This document shows, piece after piece, positions 1-6,475 of a DNA stretch of 6,475 bases. The stretch lies in the NCBI GenBank assembly GCA_022560555.1, contig JADFSZ010000101.1, forward strand, positions 1 through 6,475, in the 5' to 3' direction. Made by a program: the position numbers and the translations under genes. A model generated the notes under the pieces. It did no database searches. It saw only the letters and a list, made by a program, of their open reading frames with translations, and was not told where the DNA came from. Position 1 is the stretch's first letter, and each line of letters starts with the position of its first letter. Source of the DNA: JADFSZ01 sp022560555 [NCBI: PVC group bacterium]. Lineage in GTDB: Bacteria > GCA-001730085 > JADFSZ01.

Positions 1-1407
1 CGCGTTCTTCCATCCCTTGCGCATGGTATCGAGCTCAGTTTTGACATTTTTTTCCTTATCACGCAGCTTGGCCGCCATTTCGAAATCTTGATTTTTAATG
101 GAGGATTCTTTTTCGCTTTTGATTTTTTGAATGCGCTCCTCAAACTCTTTAATATTCGGAGGCGCGCTGGTGACCGCAAGACGAACCTTTGAACCGGCTT
201 CATCAATTACATCAATGGCTTTATCCGGCAAAAACCGCCCTGTAATGTAGCGATCGGACAATTTAACAGCAGCATCAATGGCTTCATCCAATATCTTAGC
301 TCGATGGTGTGCTTCAAACCGATCTCTCAAGCCTATAAGGATTTTGACTGTTTCGTCCACGGAAGGAGGATTAACTGTTATCGTCTGAAATCGTCTCTCT
401 AGAGCACGGTCTTTTTCTATGTTTTTACGATATTCATCAAATGTCGTAGCTCCGATACATTGAATTTCTCCGCGGGATAATGCTGGTTTCAAAATATTAG
501 AAGCGTCCATAGCCCCTTCGGCGGCTCCGGCACCGACAAGTGTATGTAATTCATCAATGAACGTGATAATGTTTTCGTTTTTCCGAAGCTCATCAAGAAC
601 AGCCTTGATGCGTTCCTCAAATTGACCGCGGTATTTAGTTCCGGCAATCATCAAGGCCAGATCAAGACAGACGATTCTTTTATTTCTTAAAATTTCCGGA
701 ACGTTTCCGGAAACAATTCTTTGGGCCAATCCCTCAACAATAGCGGTTTTTCCGACACCGGCTTCTCCCAAAAGAACAGGATTGTTCTTGGTCCGACGTC
801 CTAATATCTGCAAAACACGTTCAATCTCATGACTCCTGCCAATCACCGGATCCAATTTACCTTCCTGAGCCAGTTTCGTTAAATCAGTTCCAAACGCATC
901 TAGGGCCGGCGTTTTTGTTTTTTCGCTCTGTGTACCAACCGCGGTTTCCGTTCCTTGCATATTGAAGATCGCGGATCCCAGAAGCTTCATAATTTCATTT
1001 TTTACCTTCTCGAGAGTTATTCCGGAATTCTGCAGAACCATCGCAGCGACTCCCTCACCTTCCCTGATCAAACCAAGAAGAATATGCTCCGTTCCGACAT
1101 AATTATGGCCCAATTTCCGGGCTTCGTCCATGGACAGCTCAATCACCTTTTTGGCTTTTGGCGTAAATTCAACCTCCCCAACCTGAACAAGACTCGGACC
1201 TGTTTCAACAAGTTTTTCAATTTCTAATTTAATTCTTTCCAAACTGAATCCCAGTTTCTGTAAAACGGCAGCGGCCACACCTTGGCCCTCTTTGATGAGG
1301 CCGAGAAGAATATGCTCGGTGCCAATATAATTATGATTGTAATTTTTTGCTTCTTCTCTTGCTAAAACGAGAACTTTTCTGGCTCTTTCCGTAAAACGAT
1401 CGAACAT
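1..1407 (-). CDS. clpC: ATP-dependent Clp protease ATP-binding subunit ClpC (3' part beyond window)
   Basis: This is a Hsp100/AAA+ unfoldase that feeds substrates to the ClpP peptidase in the cytoplasm. The visible 469 residues start with two Clp N-terminal repeats (about 1-70 and 80-145), each carrying the signature [10 protein letters not shown]; in Bacillota ClpC this domain docks adaptors and phospho-arginine. After a linker comes the first AAA+ domain, with Walker A GEAGVGKT at 214-221, Walker B ITFIDE at about 281-286 and a likely arginine finger in LERRF near 336-340. Residues about 416-455 form the start of the middle domain with a UVR-type motif ([11 protein letters not shown]), which separates ClpC from ClpA and ClpB. 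The second AAA+ domain and C-terminus lie past the left edge. The ATG at 1407 is chosen because [10 protein letters not shown] is the typical ClpC start and an AGGAGG precedes it by 5 bases. It follows mcsB by 33 bases and is probably co-transcribed with mcsA-mcsB. Confidence 0.96.
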
Positions 1408-1412
1408 AGTAT

Positions 1413-1418
1413 CCTCCT
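1413..1418 (-). promoter_or_regulatory. Shine-Dalgarno of clpC
   Basis: A perfect AGGAGG on the minus strand lies 5 bases before the clpC ATG, in the 33-base gap after mcsB. It is much stronger than the sites in front of mcsA and mcsB, which suggests that clpC is translated independently and at a higher level from the shared transcript (inference). Confidence 0.8.
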
Positions 1419-1440
1419 CGTCGCTTCTCCCCAACCGGGG

Positions 1441-2502
1441 TTAATTCAATTGTGCCTGATCAAATAAATTTCTAATAAGAGACGCTCGTTTGACATCACG
1501 TTCATAAGAGTTCATTTCCCGTCCTTCTTGAAACTGGATGTGCCCCGGCTTCGTTAAAATCATCAAGACGGATAAAACCTTGCGGTCAATATCATGGATA
1601 TGCCCCAACCCAATACCGAGACGCACGGCAGACATCAGATTAATCGCCTCTTCTGAAGTCATAATCCGGCTGTGTTTCAACAAACCATATGCGCGCCATA
1701 TCCGATCCTCAATCTGAACCTTGGTTTCCTGCATAAGGATTTTCCGGGCACTTTGCTCATGCTCGATAACCTGTTTAACAATTCTCTCGATATTATCAAG
1801 GATATCAGCTTCGGAATGTCCGAGGGTTATCTGATTTGAAATTTGAAAAAAATCGCCGGTCGCTTCCGTTCCCTCTCCATGCAATCCTCTCACGGTTAAA
1901 CCAAGTTTCACAACGGCCTCGATGACTTTATTGATTTGCTTTGTCAAAACAAGGGCAGGTAAATGCATCATGACGCTGGCTCTCATGCCTGTTCCCGTAT
2001 TCGTCGGACACGCTGTGAGATATCCATATTTGACAGAAAACGCGAATTCCAAAACCCTTTCCAGCTCCGTGTCGATCTCGTCAACAACCTTCCATAACTC
2101 CTTAAGCTGAAATCCTTCCTTAATTCCCTGAAGACGAATATGATCCTCTTCATTGACCATCAGGCTGATGGTCTGAGACGGATTTACAACGATGAGTCTC
2201 TCTCCCTTAATTTCAATCAGATCTCGACTGATAAGATGCCTCTCAACCAAAACATTTTGGTCCACTTCGGATATTTTACTCACACTGACCAAAATCATCG
2301 ATGACAGCGATTTAGTTTTTTCAATGCCTTCACGGATCAGTTTGGCAGTATCCTTAAATGATTTTTCAGAAGCGACTGAGGTAAAGGACATACGCTCGAG
2401 ATTTCTCGCGACACGTATGCGCGATGACAAAACAATATCCGAGCTAGGCCCGTCTTTCGTCAGCCAATCCGCCGTATTGTGAAGGACTTCATGAAGATCC
2501 AT
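1441..2502 (-). CDS. mcsB: Protein arginine kinase McsB
   Basis: This phosphagen-kinase-family enzyme phosphorylates arginine side chains of proteins, which in Bacillota marks them for ClpCP. At 353 residues it has the usual length. Visible motifs are SSRIRVARNL (26-35, nucleotide binding), NEEDHIRLQ (117-125, with Glu119), CPTNTGTGMRASV (165-177, with the conserved Cys165) and RGLHGEGTEA (205-214, with Glu210), followed by FQISNQITLG (219-228). Glu119 and Glu210 align, with an offset of two, with what I recall as catalytic glutamates in the Geobacillus enzyme. RDVKRA (335-340) matches the RDxxRA element described as the allosteric phospho-arginine site of McsB. The ATG at 2502 is preferred over one at 2583, because the family starts shortly before the W-L-x-x-x-G-P segment and the longer version only adds 27 basic residues read from inside mcsA. 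The start overlaps the mcsA end by 14 bases, which suggests translational coupling. A GGAG lies 10 bases upstream. Confidence 0.95.
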   Translation of the reverse strand: MDLHEVLHNTADWLTKDGPSSDIVLSSRIRVARNLERMSFTSVASEKSFKDTAKLIREGIEKTKSLSSMILVSVSKISEVDQNVLVERHLISRDLIEIKGERLIVVNPSQTISLMVNEEDHIRLQGIKEGFQLKELWKVVDEIDTELERVLEFAFSVKYGYLTACPTNTGTGMRASVMMHLPALVLTKQINKVIEAVVKLGLTVRGLHGEGTEATGDFFQISNQITLGHSEADILDNIERIVKQVIEHEQSARKILMQETKVQIEDRIWRAYGLLKHSRIMTSEEAINLMSAVRLGIGLGHIHDIDRKVLSVLMILTKPGHIQFQEGREMNSYERDVKRASLIRNLFDQAQLN

Positions 2503-2992
2503 GAGGCTCTGTCTCCAATTCTTTGATTTGATCACGGATTTTGGCCGCTTCCTCGTATTTCTCGTTTTGCACCGCGTTCTCAAGCAATGAGCGCAAAACC
2601 TGTATTTTGGTCATCCTCTGAGTTTTTTTGGATTTTTTGTGCAGTGTTTTTCCCAAATGCTGCTTGCTGCCATGAATTCGCTTCAATAATTTATCAAGCT
2701 GATCAGAAAAAGTCTCATAACATTGCGAACATCCTAGGCGGCCGATTTTTTTAAAGTTCTGAAAATTTAATCCGCATCCCGGGCACTTCGGATCTCCTTG
2801 CTCAAGTTCCGTCCCCTCCTCTGATAAATCCGCTAAACTCGACAACAGTTCTGACACAAGAAACTTGTGAGATGAACCCAGTGAATCTTTTTTTTTGGCA
2901 CAAGCTTCACATAAATGACTTTCAGTGACATTTTCATCTAAGATCTGCGTGTAATGGATCGTTGCTTCTTTGGGGCATAAATCGCACTTCAT
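2489..2992 (-). CDS. mcsA: McsA, zinc-finger/UVR-motif activator of McsB
   Basis: McsA is the partner and activator of the arginine kinase McsB and helps connect it to ClpC. The 167-residue protein has four cysteine pairs that can bind two zinc ions: C3/C6, C28/C31, C70/C73 and C88/C91. A lysine-rich stretch follows (about 101-129). The C-terminus is a UVR motif (about 131-160, core KYEEAAKIRDQIKELE), the same type as in the middle domain of ClpC and in UvrB/UvrC. Length and order match the McsA family. The start at ATG 2992 gives the canonical MKCDLC opening; the ribosome site is weak (AAAGG, 10 bases upstream). It is the first gene of the mcsA-mcsB-clpC group and overlaps mcsB at its 3' end. 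No ctsR gene stands in front of it, unlike the order in Bacillota. Confidence 0.93.
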   Translation of the reverse strand: MKCDLCPKEATIHYTQILDENVTESHLCEACAKKKDSLGSSHKFLVSELLSSLADLSEEGTELEQGDPKCPGCGLNFQNFKKIGRLGCSQCYETFSDQLDKLLKRIHGSKQHLGKTLHKKSKKTQRMTKIQVLRSLLENAVQNEKYEEAAKIRDQIKELETEPHGSS

Positions 2993-3123
2993 GGACTGAA
3001 AACCTTTACTTGGAGCTTTTTCAATATGCTGTATCTACACCAATAAAATTTAATGCATACGAGTATTTTAATAACTATCAGAAATTACAAGACTTAAATC
3101 GTATCCAAAAACAATACTGCGTG

Positions 3124-3152
3124 ATTATAGCACAATCTAAATTAAATAAAAG
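3124..3152 (-). promoter_or_regulatory. Candidate sigma-70-type extended -10 promoter for mcsA-mcsB-clpC
   Basis: The minus strand carries TGCTATAAT (3124-3132), a perfect -10 hexamer with the extended TG element. A spacer of 17 bases leads to a poor -35 (CTTTTA). Transcription would start near 3117, leaving a leader of about 125 bases before the mcsA ATG. The region from 2993 to 3195 is A+T-rich. I see no CtsR-type direct repeat (GGTCAAA heptamers) and no CIRCE inverted repeat in it, and no riboswitch that I recognise. The prediction rests on the motif and its position only. Confidence 0.5.
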
Positions 3153-3195
3153 GGATCTTTTCGGTAAGTACGTGAAGTCATTCGGCTTGGGTTTT

Positions 3196-6100
3196 TTAGC
3201 CAAGTTGCATTTCAACCAACTTAACCCGCCCCTGACGGATATCATAAACAGACTTCCCTCGTAAAAATCCACAGGCAATGTCTTCGGTGCGTCCGTCACG
3301 CCAAGTCAATGTGAACCGTTGAACTTTAACCCGTTTGGCTCCAAAGGTTGGTTTTCTTTTTGGATTGGAATATATAAACAACGTGTCTTTGAGCGTAACA
3401 AATGCCAAACTGTTCTTAGGAACTAAAACACCCTGAAAGACATGTTTTTTATTCGTAAAGAGCCACGCGTCCAGAGAAGGCTCCGGGATAAATTGCAGTT
3501 TTTTGTCCTGGTCCAAACGAAAAGGTTGGGCCCCCAACATCATCAAAATCCAAATATGAATCCACTCCGCTGTTGACCCGCTCAAACGCGCGACAAAACC
3601 ATTGCCGTGCAGCAAATCATCCGGATAAGCCGAACTGCAGATAAAAGAAGAATTCTCAAGAATACTTCTCCCGTATATTTTTGGATCCATAAATGGAACC
3701 AAGCATGTCTTAATATCATTATAAAATTCCCTTGTGAGTCCCGATTTCAAAATCTCCAAAAGATATTTATATTCCATATGCATCCATATGGACTCGTTCT
3801 CCAGCCAGCCCGGGGAAAATATTTGAATCCGTCCGATTTCCGGAGGTTCCTTGGCCATCGACGAAGACACTTTATACATCTTGAGCTTCTTATCAAACAA
3901 GGGACTCCTTTTAATCGCCTGATAAAGACGTTTCGATTTCGTATCGTTTTTAAGAATCCGAAACAGATGAACGGGGCCCTCTAAGAACAAGGGCAAGGCC
4001 TGATGTTTAAAGCCACTTATATTCATGCATGGGTACCCTTTTAGGTTTGTCTTTTCGCTTGGCTGAAAATCTTTGGCTGTGGATCGAAAATACGTGCTCA
4101 TCACATGACTCTTAGGGGCTTTGGCCCTCTCAAGACCATTCTGAAGCTTTTCGTCCGCTTTGTCTAAAAGCGGCTTTATCATCTCTAAGCTCCATGGCAC
4201 AAAATCCCCATTGAGGCCCATACGGATATCTTCACGAAATTTTTCCTTCGCAGAAGTTGATGCCTCCCAATAGTCGTAATGTTTTGAAGATGCATGATTC
4301 CCCTTCCAATGATCGAGAGCCGTTTCGATTTTATTTAAGAACTCTGACAATTCTCGAGGAATGTTGAAAATATACTCATCCGGCAACGAAAGATCTTCCA
4401 AATTCTCTTTTAAGCTTCGAATCATCCGGACAAGTTCACACGTCTCCGCCGTTGAGGAGCCGAAAAGCCCCGGAAGTCCGTTCAAGGAATCATTCCAATT
4501 CGGTTTATCCGATTCCATTTCGATGCCAATGCCCTCAGCATCCAAAGACGCGATCTTATTTGCAAATATAAATAAAATCTTCGTGAACAAATTCGTCCGA
4601 TAGATTTCTCCATGACCGCTGCCTAAGCGCAATTTATTCTTGTCGTAAGACCTGCTTTCGATCAATTCGGTTTTTTTGGGGTCATGAACGACACTCCCAA
4701 ACTGCCGGACTTGACCTTCCCAAAAAACATATTTTTCACTTCTAGGCACAACACGATGGTCATTATCGTAAAATGTATAGACAGCTCGATCGAGCAGCAA
4801 TTCCCTTAACCGATCCGGATAAACAGAAAGAAAACTCTCTATAAGATCATTATTATAGTGCCAATGGTCCGACCAAAACCCTTCTCCATGATCCGCTAAT
4901 TCTTCCCTGTGGCACGTTTCCAGTATTTTTGCCAAAAAGATTTTGGGATCTACTTTTAATTGAATTCTCTTTTGAGTAATAAATGTCAGCAGATCACCAG
5001 GCATAAAACTTACTTGCACGAACTCCTTGATCAACTTCTGTTTATTTTTGGCAACACACCGCGCAATAGCTCGATTTAATTTCTTTTTATCGTATACCGA
5101 AAATGCTGTTCCCCGGATAATAAGTGGATTGTAACCGTCAGCCTGGCTTAAATTCAAAAAGTTAACCAAATGACTACTCTTAACATCCGCATTAAACCAA
5201 ACATCATTGCGGCGGTTTTGATTCACGTCGCGATAATTCCCATTTCCTTGCGAATAAAATGTGGGCGCTAAAACAAAATAATTGTAATCCCTTTCAAGGT
5301 CTCCATGTTTGCGACTATAGACATTGATAGCGATCGGGCCCCTATTTGTTTGCAATGAAACTGGGAGTCCTCCACGTAAGATATTATCAAGAAATGTATA
5401 GGACGAATAAAGATTGAATTCCTTTGATGAGCTTTCTGTCAATGCAAAATTCTTGATCTCATCAATGATCGTTTTATTGCATTCTGCTTTTTTCTCAATA
5501 AAATTCCTTTGAGTCACTTGGCGGACAATTTTATTCAGTTGTGTTTCACTATGCGCATGACCGAATAAAGAAACGATATTTTTTTCACCTTTTGGTTTCA
5601 ATAGAAACCGAGTATATCCCATTGCCGATGGTGTACGATTACTCGCCTGTTGGCGCTTTGGAACCTTAAAGCTGCCTTGGCGAAACTTCACTGGAGCCAG
5701 GAAATCGCAAGCGTCCCCAAAAATATGCGTATTCTCGATGATAGGATCAAGCAATGCCCTGTTCTTTGATTTTGGATCAAAACTAAAAAAGAAATTTCCC
5801 TCCTCAATATGCGTTACTCTCGGCGTATCAGAAACTTCAACACGAAGCTGATAGTACGGGGCTTTTTTACTAAGATTACGAACCTGAACCCATGCCTCGG
5901 CAGTGCGCGCTATATTTTTGTTAAGAACATCCGTAAGGCCGTAAGGAACCAAAGCGGGAAGTCCATCAATAATTTCAGCACGGTAAGATTTCCTTCCTGT
6001 GTTTTTGATCGTAATACTGCGCACAAGGCTAGCATAGGGTTCCTCGGGAAGAGTAAAATAATTGACTGTAGCGGTTAAACCTAGATCAAGATTAATTTCT

Positions 6101-6348
6101 TGCAGCGTCAAATCATGCGCTGAAATCGTCAATGTTTGCTTCTTCTTAAAACCGGTTCCTTCTAAATGGTTTTGAAACGGCTCCCAATAGATCGTCTTTG
6201 ATCCAGATGTTAGTTTGATAAACGTGCGGAAGCCCTGTAATGACAATTGCCGCGCTGCGACTGATCCTGCCGGACCGGCTCCCACCACCACCGCATCCCA
6301 GCTTATGTGTGTCGCGTCATCAAGGTCAATTGTGGCGGAGATGGTCAT
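3196..6348 (-). CDS. GH94-like (cellobiose phosphorylase family) protein with a foreign FAD-oxidoreductase N-terminus; chimeric ORF
   Basis: The ORF encodes 1050 residues in two unrelated parts. Residues 1-43 are the start of an FAD-dependent oxidoreductase: WDAVVVGAGPAGSVAARQL (17-35) is a Rossmann GxGxxG, but the sequence breaks off before the acidic residue that should bind the ADP ribose, so it cannot form an FAD domain. From about residue 44 on it is a large GH94-like protein: an N-terminal beta-sandwich region lacking its beginning (YASLVRSITIKNTG near 97-110), then the helical barrel with FWSDHWHYN (491-499) and KPNWNDSLNGLPGLFGSS (from about 615, Asp620 in WND), and late motifs ARLSGSTAEW (920-929) before a C-terminal beta domain. 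GH94 enzymes are inverting phosphorylases of beta-glucosides; substrate and activity here are unknown. No signal peptide, so probably cytoplasmic. The ATG at 6348 has an AGGTGGAG six bases upstream; no methionine lies between the join and far inside the GH94 part. The GH94-like assignment is fairly sure; integrity of the gene is doubtful. Confidence 0.75.
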   Translation of the reverse strand: MTISATIDLDDATHISWDAVVVGAGPAGSVAARQLSLQGFRTFIKLTSGSKTIYWEPFQNHLEGTGFKKKQTLTISAHDLTLQEINLDLGLTATVNYFTLPEEPYASLVRSITIKNTGRKSYRAEIIDGLPALVPYGLTDVLNKNIARTAEAWVQVRNLSKKAPYYQLRVEVSDTPRVTHIEEGNFFFSFDPKSKNRALLDPIIENTHIFGDACDFLAPVKFRQGSFKVPKRQQASNRTPSAMGYTRFLLKPKGEKNIVSLFGHAHSETQLNKIVRQVTQRNFIEKKAECNKTIIDEIKNFALTESSSKEFNLYSSYTFLDNILRGGLPVSLQTNRGPIAINVYSRKHGDLERDYNYFVLAPTFYSQGNGNYRDVNQNRRNDVWFNADVKSSHLVNFLNLSQADGYNPLIIRGTAFSVYDKKKLNRAIARCVAKNKQKLIKEFVQVSFMPGDLLTFITQKRIQLKVDPKIFLAKILETCHREELADHGEGFWSDHWHYNNDLIESFLSVYPDRLRELLLDRAVYTFYDNDHRVVPRSEKYVFWEGQVRQFGSVVHDPKKTELIESRSYDKNKLRLGSGHGEIYRTNLFTKILFIFANKIASLDAEGIGIEMESDKPNWNDSLNGLPGLFGSSTAETCELVRMIRSLKENLEDLSLPDEYIFNIPRELSEFLNKIETALDHWKGNHASSKHYDYWEASTSAKEKFREDIRMGLNGDFVPWSLEMIKPLLDKADEKLQNGLERAKAPKSHVMSTYFRSTAKDFQPSEKTNLKGYPCMNISGFKHQALPLFLEGPVHLFRILKNDTKSKRLYQAIKRSPLFDKKLKMYKVSSSMAKEPPEIGRIQIFSPGWLENESIWMHMEYKYLLEILKSGLTREFYNDIKTCLVPFMDPKIYGRSILENSSFICSSAYPDDLLHGNGFVARLSGSTAEWIHIWILMMLGAQPFRLDQDKKLQFIPEPSLDAWLFTNKKHVFQGVLVPKNSLAFVTLKDTLFIYSNPKRKPTFGAKRVKVQRFTLTWRDGRTEDIACGFLRGKSVYDIRQGRVKLVEMQLG
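6215..6235. other. Fusion junction / composition break inside the chimeric ORF
   Basis: Around codon 41-45 of the long ORF the protein changes from an FAD-oxidoreductase N-terminus (ends ...LQGFRTF) to GH94-like sequence (IKLTSGSKTIYWEPF...). Counted by hand, bases 6241-6475 are about 57% G+C, while 6001-6180 are about 40%. I see no insertion-sequence end or repeat at the join. The exact breakpoint cannot be fixed without the two parental sequences. Confidence 0.65.
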
Positions 6349-6475
6349 GTTGGTCTCCACCTGAGGAGAAACCGTTGTGGCCAGTGTAGCGAAACGGTCG
6401 TTTTTTCCATTCCAGCTTGTCTCGCAAGCAGCAAAGCTTCGTCAGTCGTGAAGGCTGCCTCCACGGATAATGGCC
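6345..6475 (-). CDS. C-terminal end of a class I SAM-dependent methyltransferase (5' part beyond window)
   Basis: The last 42 codons of a gene entering from the right edge are visible. They read PLSVEAAFTTDEALLLARQ, then AGMEKTTVSLHWPQRFLLRW and a short tail. The pattern ALxLARxAG...HWPxRFLLxW resembles the C-terminus of UbiE-like (methyltransferase type 11) enzymes that often precede FAD-dependent oxidoreductases in lipid or polyketide gene clusters. The SAM-binding domain is outside the window, so the call rests on this tail and on context. Its TGA overlaps the ATG of the FAD-type start as ATGA (6345-6348), the normal arrangement of a tightly coupled operon, which shows that the methyltransferase and FAD fragments belong together. 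Confidence 0.55.
   Translation of the reverse strand, partial: PLSVEAAFTTDEALLLARQAGMEKTTVSLHWPQRFLLRWRPT
6355..6362 (-). promoter_or_regulatory. Shine-Dalgarno that fixes the ATG start at 6348
   Basis: AGGTGGAG on the minus strand ends 6 bases before the ATG at 6348, inside the 3' end of the methyltransferase gene. It argues against the GTG at 6360 as start, because that codon is part of the ribosome site itself. The ATGA overlap with the upstream stop supports the same start. Confidence 0.65.

Follow-up and report, generated by a model that had tools for sequence, protein, structure and literature searches.

The beta-1,3-glucan phosphorylases of family GH161 carry catalytic aspartates that are said, in the available part of PMC6484121, to be conserved across the family. 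For planctomycetes, the portion of PMC10896814 at hand describes a gene order in which a methyltransferase is followed by an oxidoreductase and then by a PKS. On the technical side, the accessible sections of PMC8172020 point out that k-mer assembly loses the context of the reads and report that the chimeric sequence of a mock community lay without exception at contig ends.

A fused reading frame at a contig end

The window, i.e. the whole stretch of DNA analysed here, is a complete contig of 6475 bases (C71) from a host genome (G000) of 1.66 Mb in 222 contigs that is 91.5% complete. A single uninterrupted open reading frame runs along its minus strand from an ATG at 6348 to a stop at 3196 (1050 aa, or 1054 aa from an alternative upstream start, a GTG at 6360), beginning as a FAD oxidoreductase and continuing as the body of a beta-glucan phosphorylase. 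G+C content is 42.2% in 1-6219 versus 56.7% in 6245-6475, and this right-hand value exceeds those of all 599 same-size windows to the left and of all 1279 on C188, another contig of the host genome. Both the in-frame passage from a FAD-enzyme start into a carbohydrate-enzyme body and the compositional shift at the join had been described in an initial annotation of this DNA, and both descriptions hold. What did not survive was a candidate of our own: repeats of at least 12 bases, sought as the scar of a mobile element at the join, are absent from 5900-6475. With up to 2 mismatches allowed, the 21-base sequence at 6217-6237 has a single occurrence in the host genome.

The left side of the contig carries three further minus-strand genes in a row at 1-2992, beside the GH161 gene: a ClpC-like ATPase that runs off the left contig end (1-1410), a McsB-like ATP:guanido phosphotransferase (1441-2514) and a McsA-like protein with a UVR motif (2489-2992). 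We take the names McsB and ClpC to apply here, and that of McsA presumably applies as well, given gene order and motif. McsA, McsB and ClpC form a protein-arginine phosphorylation set that is known from Firmicutes. They are found next to GH161 in none of the 32 GH161 loci compared below (3.4-13.1 kb in length), so that gene order speaks neither for nor against the contig from 2992 to 3196. G+C falls to 31% at 3001-3200, in the stretch that separates the McsA-like gene from the GH161 stop; this is probably ordinary intergenic DNA, though a further join there is conceivable.

The two parent families and the join zone

Comparison with solved chains identifies the body of the fused frame (3196-6243, minus strand) as GH161, with E values of 2e-181 to 9qqk_A and 4.8e-181 to 9h8v_A; in the former case query residues 30-1004, numbered from window position 6219, align over the chain. 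A W-N-D-S-L-N-G motif at 4477-4500 is what we take to be the predicted catalytic site. The GH94-like label initially given to the body holds for the wider group of related families but not for the member family. Pfam, which includes GH94 models, returned no family for the body at E<=1, and the sole NCBIfam match is GH149 at 96.8 bits, below a cut-off of 1150; on these results we rejected a GH94 identity.

A scan of genome contigs yielded 30 GH161 loci with 34-54% identity in the best segment, including records from Omnitrophota, Lentisphaerae, Kiritimatiellae, Endomicrobia and Lachnospiraceae. Together with L003 and a paralogue from the host genome (L005) these make up the 32 loci considered; two pieces of one distant GH161-like reading frame in genome G026 (L004 and L006, 22-30% identity) were left out of the counts. 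Directly upstream of the aligned body, and in the same frame, 29 of the 32 loci carry a conserved N-terminal block, some 83-90 residues long, whose last residues are GFRTF or CFRTF; the remaining three (L023, L037, L038) are truncated by the edge of a contig. Locus L009, for instance, has ...KSYRMASLQGFRTF-IKVTSGAKTVYWEPFQNH where the window has ...VAARQLSLQGFRTF-IKLTSGSKTIYWEPFQNH, a type of comparison from which it follows that the block has been lost from the window and only its last residues kept. The complete N-terminal beta domain, with its block ending in GFRTF, is thus missing from the window. The first ATG, GTG or TTG codon inside the GH161 part lies at 6132, so that the gene is without its usual start, as the initial annotation had stated; its further claim of a missing N-terminus was right as to the loss and somewhat too high as to the size, which was put at about 100 residues and which we estimate from the candidate start codons of relatives at 83-90. 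When a relative's N-terminus was searched against the host genome, it matched only the paralogue on C188. Neither the FAD piece nor the methyltransferase piece is present in any of the 32 GH161 loci. On these sequence comparisons, the GH161 gene of C71 should be annotated as lacking its 5' end.

The right-hand part of the contig has a different affiliation. The 3' end of a putatively foreign methyltransferase gene (6345-6473, minus strand; 42 codons plus stop, encoded by bases 6348-6473) runs off the contig end, and its stop overlaps the oxidoreductase start codon as ATGA, 6348 to 6345. The FAD-dependent oxidoreductase gene itself, likewise putatively foreign, is represented by its first 35-42 codons (6223-6348, minus strand), which include half of a FAD Rossmann motif, WDAVVVGAGPAGSVAARQL (residues 17-35). 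In Pfam and NCBIfam this piece is matched weakly by many FAD families, the top one being TIGR02032 (geranylgeranyl reductase family) at 6.2e-7, far below that model's cut-off. Searched against 386 broadly sampled genomes, the methyltransferase tail matched three besides its own (G136, G140 and G273), and in all three a methyltransferase reading frame is followed by an oxidoreductase reading frame, both confirmed by Pfam in G273. The third gene in G140, taken whole, is a type III PKS by Pfam, and those in G273 and G136 were judged by eye from their reading frames to be the same; partial third genes from the three genomes gave no Pfam match. The tail was further found in 15 of 68 genomes of G140's phylum and the FAD piece in 183 of 397 genomes of G273's class, although the latter query is short and motif-rich, so that weak matches may be to other FAD proteins. 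Considered alongside the gene order in the available text of PMC10896814, these loci would point to a planctomycete origin of the right-hand piece.

We examined 47 such loci (1.7-3.1 kb each); the tail had picked out 17 of them and the FAD piece 30, and two of them, L045 and L070, are one gene. All 47 contain the methyltransferase tail, which is independent evidence for the 30 loci that had been selected by the FAD piece, and 46 have a FAD match on the same strand, the exception being L049. A GH161 match is found in none of them. In these relatives (L050 excepted) the oxidoreductase continues for 347-459 residues. Relatives show the full FAD domain, with the acidic residue that follows the second strand and a K-V-C-G motif, all of which the window lacks: at column 46 it has L, where each of the 44 distinct FAD relatives has D or E, in keeping with the initial annotation, which had the FAD part ending before that residue and neither half of the protein complete. 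A relative's full oxidoreductase, searched against the host genome, matched the fragment only (E<=0.01), and a search there for the rest of the foreign gene gave only weak FAD-motif matches besides the fragment. A donor sought by DNA similarity produced a match in one of 97 relatives besides the host's own genome (32 bases, E 4.5e-4), and plasmid records searched for the FAD piece gave nothing. The closest relatives reach 67% identity over 42 residues for the oxidoreductase and 54% in the best segment for GH161; at the level of DNA identity, neither true parent of the join was found.

For position profiles of the two families we took 45 of the 47 FAD loci, omitting L049, which has no FAD match, and L050, which is truncated where its stretch ends, and 29 of the 32 GH161 loci; once duplicates were dropped, 44 distinct FAD and 28 distinct GH161 sequences remained. 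Residues 17-35 of the fused protein score well on the FAD family and poorly on GH161, except for A31 and R33, and from residue 43 onward scores are good on GH161 and poor on the FAD family. Between the two, residues 36-39, 41 and 42 are positive on both families and F40 on GH161 only. Residue by residue, these scores place the join at residues 35-42, about 6223-6243 on the minus strand, i.e. the 21 bases for S-L-Q-G-F-R-T, which is near the 6200-6240 first suggested and slightly to the right of it. The best breakpoint falls after residue 35, 37, 38, 36 or 39, all within 2.2 bits of each other.

The S-L-Q-G motif fits both families unusually well: it scores 8.1 bits on FAD columns 36-39, a level attained by none of 1002 4-mers from the GH161 part, and 10.3 bits on the GH161 columns, attained by none of 1408 FAD 4-mers. 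On FAD columns the 7-mer SLQGFRT scores above all 999 of the 999 GH161-part 7-mers; with 10.1 it nevertheless lies under 43 of the 44 FAD relatives (median 15.8), none of which has F40, and the shared word may therefore be shorter than 20-21 bases. The smallest k of common assemblers is 20-21 bases. Read from the protein profiles, a reading rather than a measurement, the stretch shared at the join would span 12 to 21 bases. DNA of the two families' relatives, compared over the 21 join bases, agrees at a mean of 7.0 of 21 positions, and the highest of 85 other registers reaches 7.02, so that the similarity at the join scarcely rises above that of other registers.

Competing origins of the join

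A second contig of the same genome bears on how such a join might arise. C188 (locus L047) carries a GH161 paralogue (8918-11275; a reading frame of 786 aa) that keeps its N-terminus, breaks after ...LDNVLRGGYPIPI and passes in frame into a PQQ-repeat protein. Over 2,114 bases (10,098-12,211) C188 shares 99.76% identity with contig C41 of G190, a genome that does not belong to the host's phylum, with 5 mismatches, 4 of which fall within the first 13 bases. The PQQ-repeat gene is intact on that contig (744 aa), and homologues with open frames are found in other genomes, for instance G083 (767) and G273 (748). At 12,211, the second join, identity to G190 ends inside the GTPEPGG motif of an opposite-strand agmatinase/arginase fragment; we observe this fragment at 11934-12371 on the minus strand. 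Judged from these alignments, C188 is a mosaic contig with two mid-gene joins around a piece from another phylum. A wrong assembly path in one sample is a far more likely source of this 2.1-kb piece, interrupted within a gene at either end, than natural transfer between phyla, and we infer that G190 was recovered from the same sample as the host genome. Keep in mind that C188 came to notice through its GH161 gene and is no random sample, so that it yields no rate of joins for the genome. G190 belongs to the 386-genome sample, where the methyltransferase tail did not match it at E<=0.001; it is thus not established as the donor of the C71 tail.

Against this background, it is very likely that the fused frame of C71 is an assembly chimera made at a short shared word. 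Imagine that S-L-Q-G, or S-L-Q-G-F-R-T, were encoded by the same 12 to 21 or so bases, in the same frame, in both parent genes: on the left the GH161 gene of the genome under assembly, on the right the oxidoreductase gene of a higher-G+C, planctomycete-like bacterium. At that word the assembler would have left the GH161 gene and gone on in the operon of the other organism, halting some 230 bases further on. We infer three elements of this scenario, namely that the bases are the same in both parents, that the assembler rather than the tube is the origin, and how long the word is. The reading follows from the occurrence of both halves in uninterrupted genes elsewhere, as found in the two-part search that the initial annotation had proposed, together with the complete lack of the fused form among 32 GH161 and 47 FAD loci. 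It follows, too, from the position at the contig end, the shift in G+C, the stretch that fits both families and the joins on C188. Both parts are intact elsewhere, and the foreign part, the last 4% of C71, sits at the contig end. An assembly chimera had also been the initial annotation's first choice, which the comparative evidence from both parents, the contig end and the C188 precedent now bear out. Points against it are that neither true parent was found at DNA identity, that the 7-mer scores low on the FAD columns and the shared word may thus be shorter than the smallest k of common assemblers, and that the DNA of the two families hardly stands out at the join. The frame is also kept across the join, as a real fusion would need; yet a motif shared in register would keep the frame even if there were no real fusion.

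The same comparative facts would be expected if the join had been made in the tube, by molecules that became chimeric during library preparation or whole-genome amplification and were then assembled. Short shared stretches can promote tube chimeras too. Such chimeras are usually rare relative to true molecules, however, and the 2.1-kb piece of C188, with its two joins, would require two events in one molecule, so that we regard this origin as unlikely. The open frame speaks for a third scenario, in which recombination or deletion at a short shared stretch took place in the cell and put a fragment of a foreign operon before a truncated GH161 gene, now a pseudogene; the authors of PMC10896814, in the part of their text available, themselves raise interphylum horizontal transfer of the PKS cluster. 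However, the contig ends 232 bases past the join, no further oxidoreductase turns up in a genome that is 91.5% complete, and mid-gene joins to another phylum's sequence are present elsewhere in that genome. We consider this scenario very improbable, and give equally little credence to a version of it in which recombination at the 12-21 shared bases was real and recent and the truncated phosphorylase is translated from the foreign coupled start in an uncultured bacterium. A natural, functional fusion of a FAD domain with a phosphorylase has the single reading frame in its favour. Neither half is a full domain, though, and no examined locus on either side carries the fused form (0/32 GH161, 0/47 FAD); we rejected this idea as scarcely credible.

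If the fused frame is most likely an artefact of assembly, as we argue from sequence, a fusion should not be annotated for the C71 protein, which would not be a new protein. Contigs of this kind are a caution for metagenome data: they bring false in-frame fusion proteins into public databases, even from genomes with good completeness scores, and a false protein reads smoothly when its join lies within a short motif that can occur in unrelated proteins. C188, from the same genome, deserves a flag too.

Comparison with described systems

Compared with the GH161 beta-1,3-glucan phosphorylases (PDB 9qqk, 9sr2, 9h8v; family founded in PMC6484121), the gene in the window is alike over the catalytic body and differs at its beginning, where the first 83-90 residues are gone and 35-42 foreign residues stand instead. 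Compared with the planctomycete operon of methyltransferase, FAD oxidoreductase and type III PKS, which resembles cyanobacterial hidABC according to the available text of PMC10896814, the right-hand end has the same overlap between methyltransferase tail and oxidoreductase start and the same gene order, whereas the window holds only about 230-250 bases of it, with the oxidoreductase cut after 35-42 residues and no PKS. The closest parallel to the contig as a whole may be the chimeric k-mer metagenome contigs described in the accessible sections of PMC8172020: C71, which we judged from sequence comparison, is likewise foreign at its end, and its join likewise falls in a stretch that fits both families.
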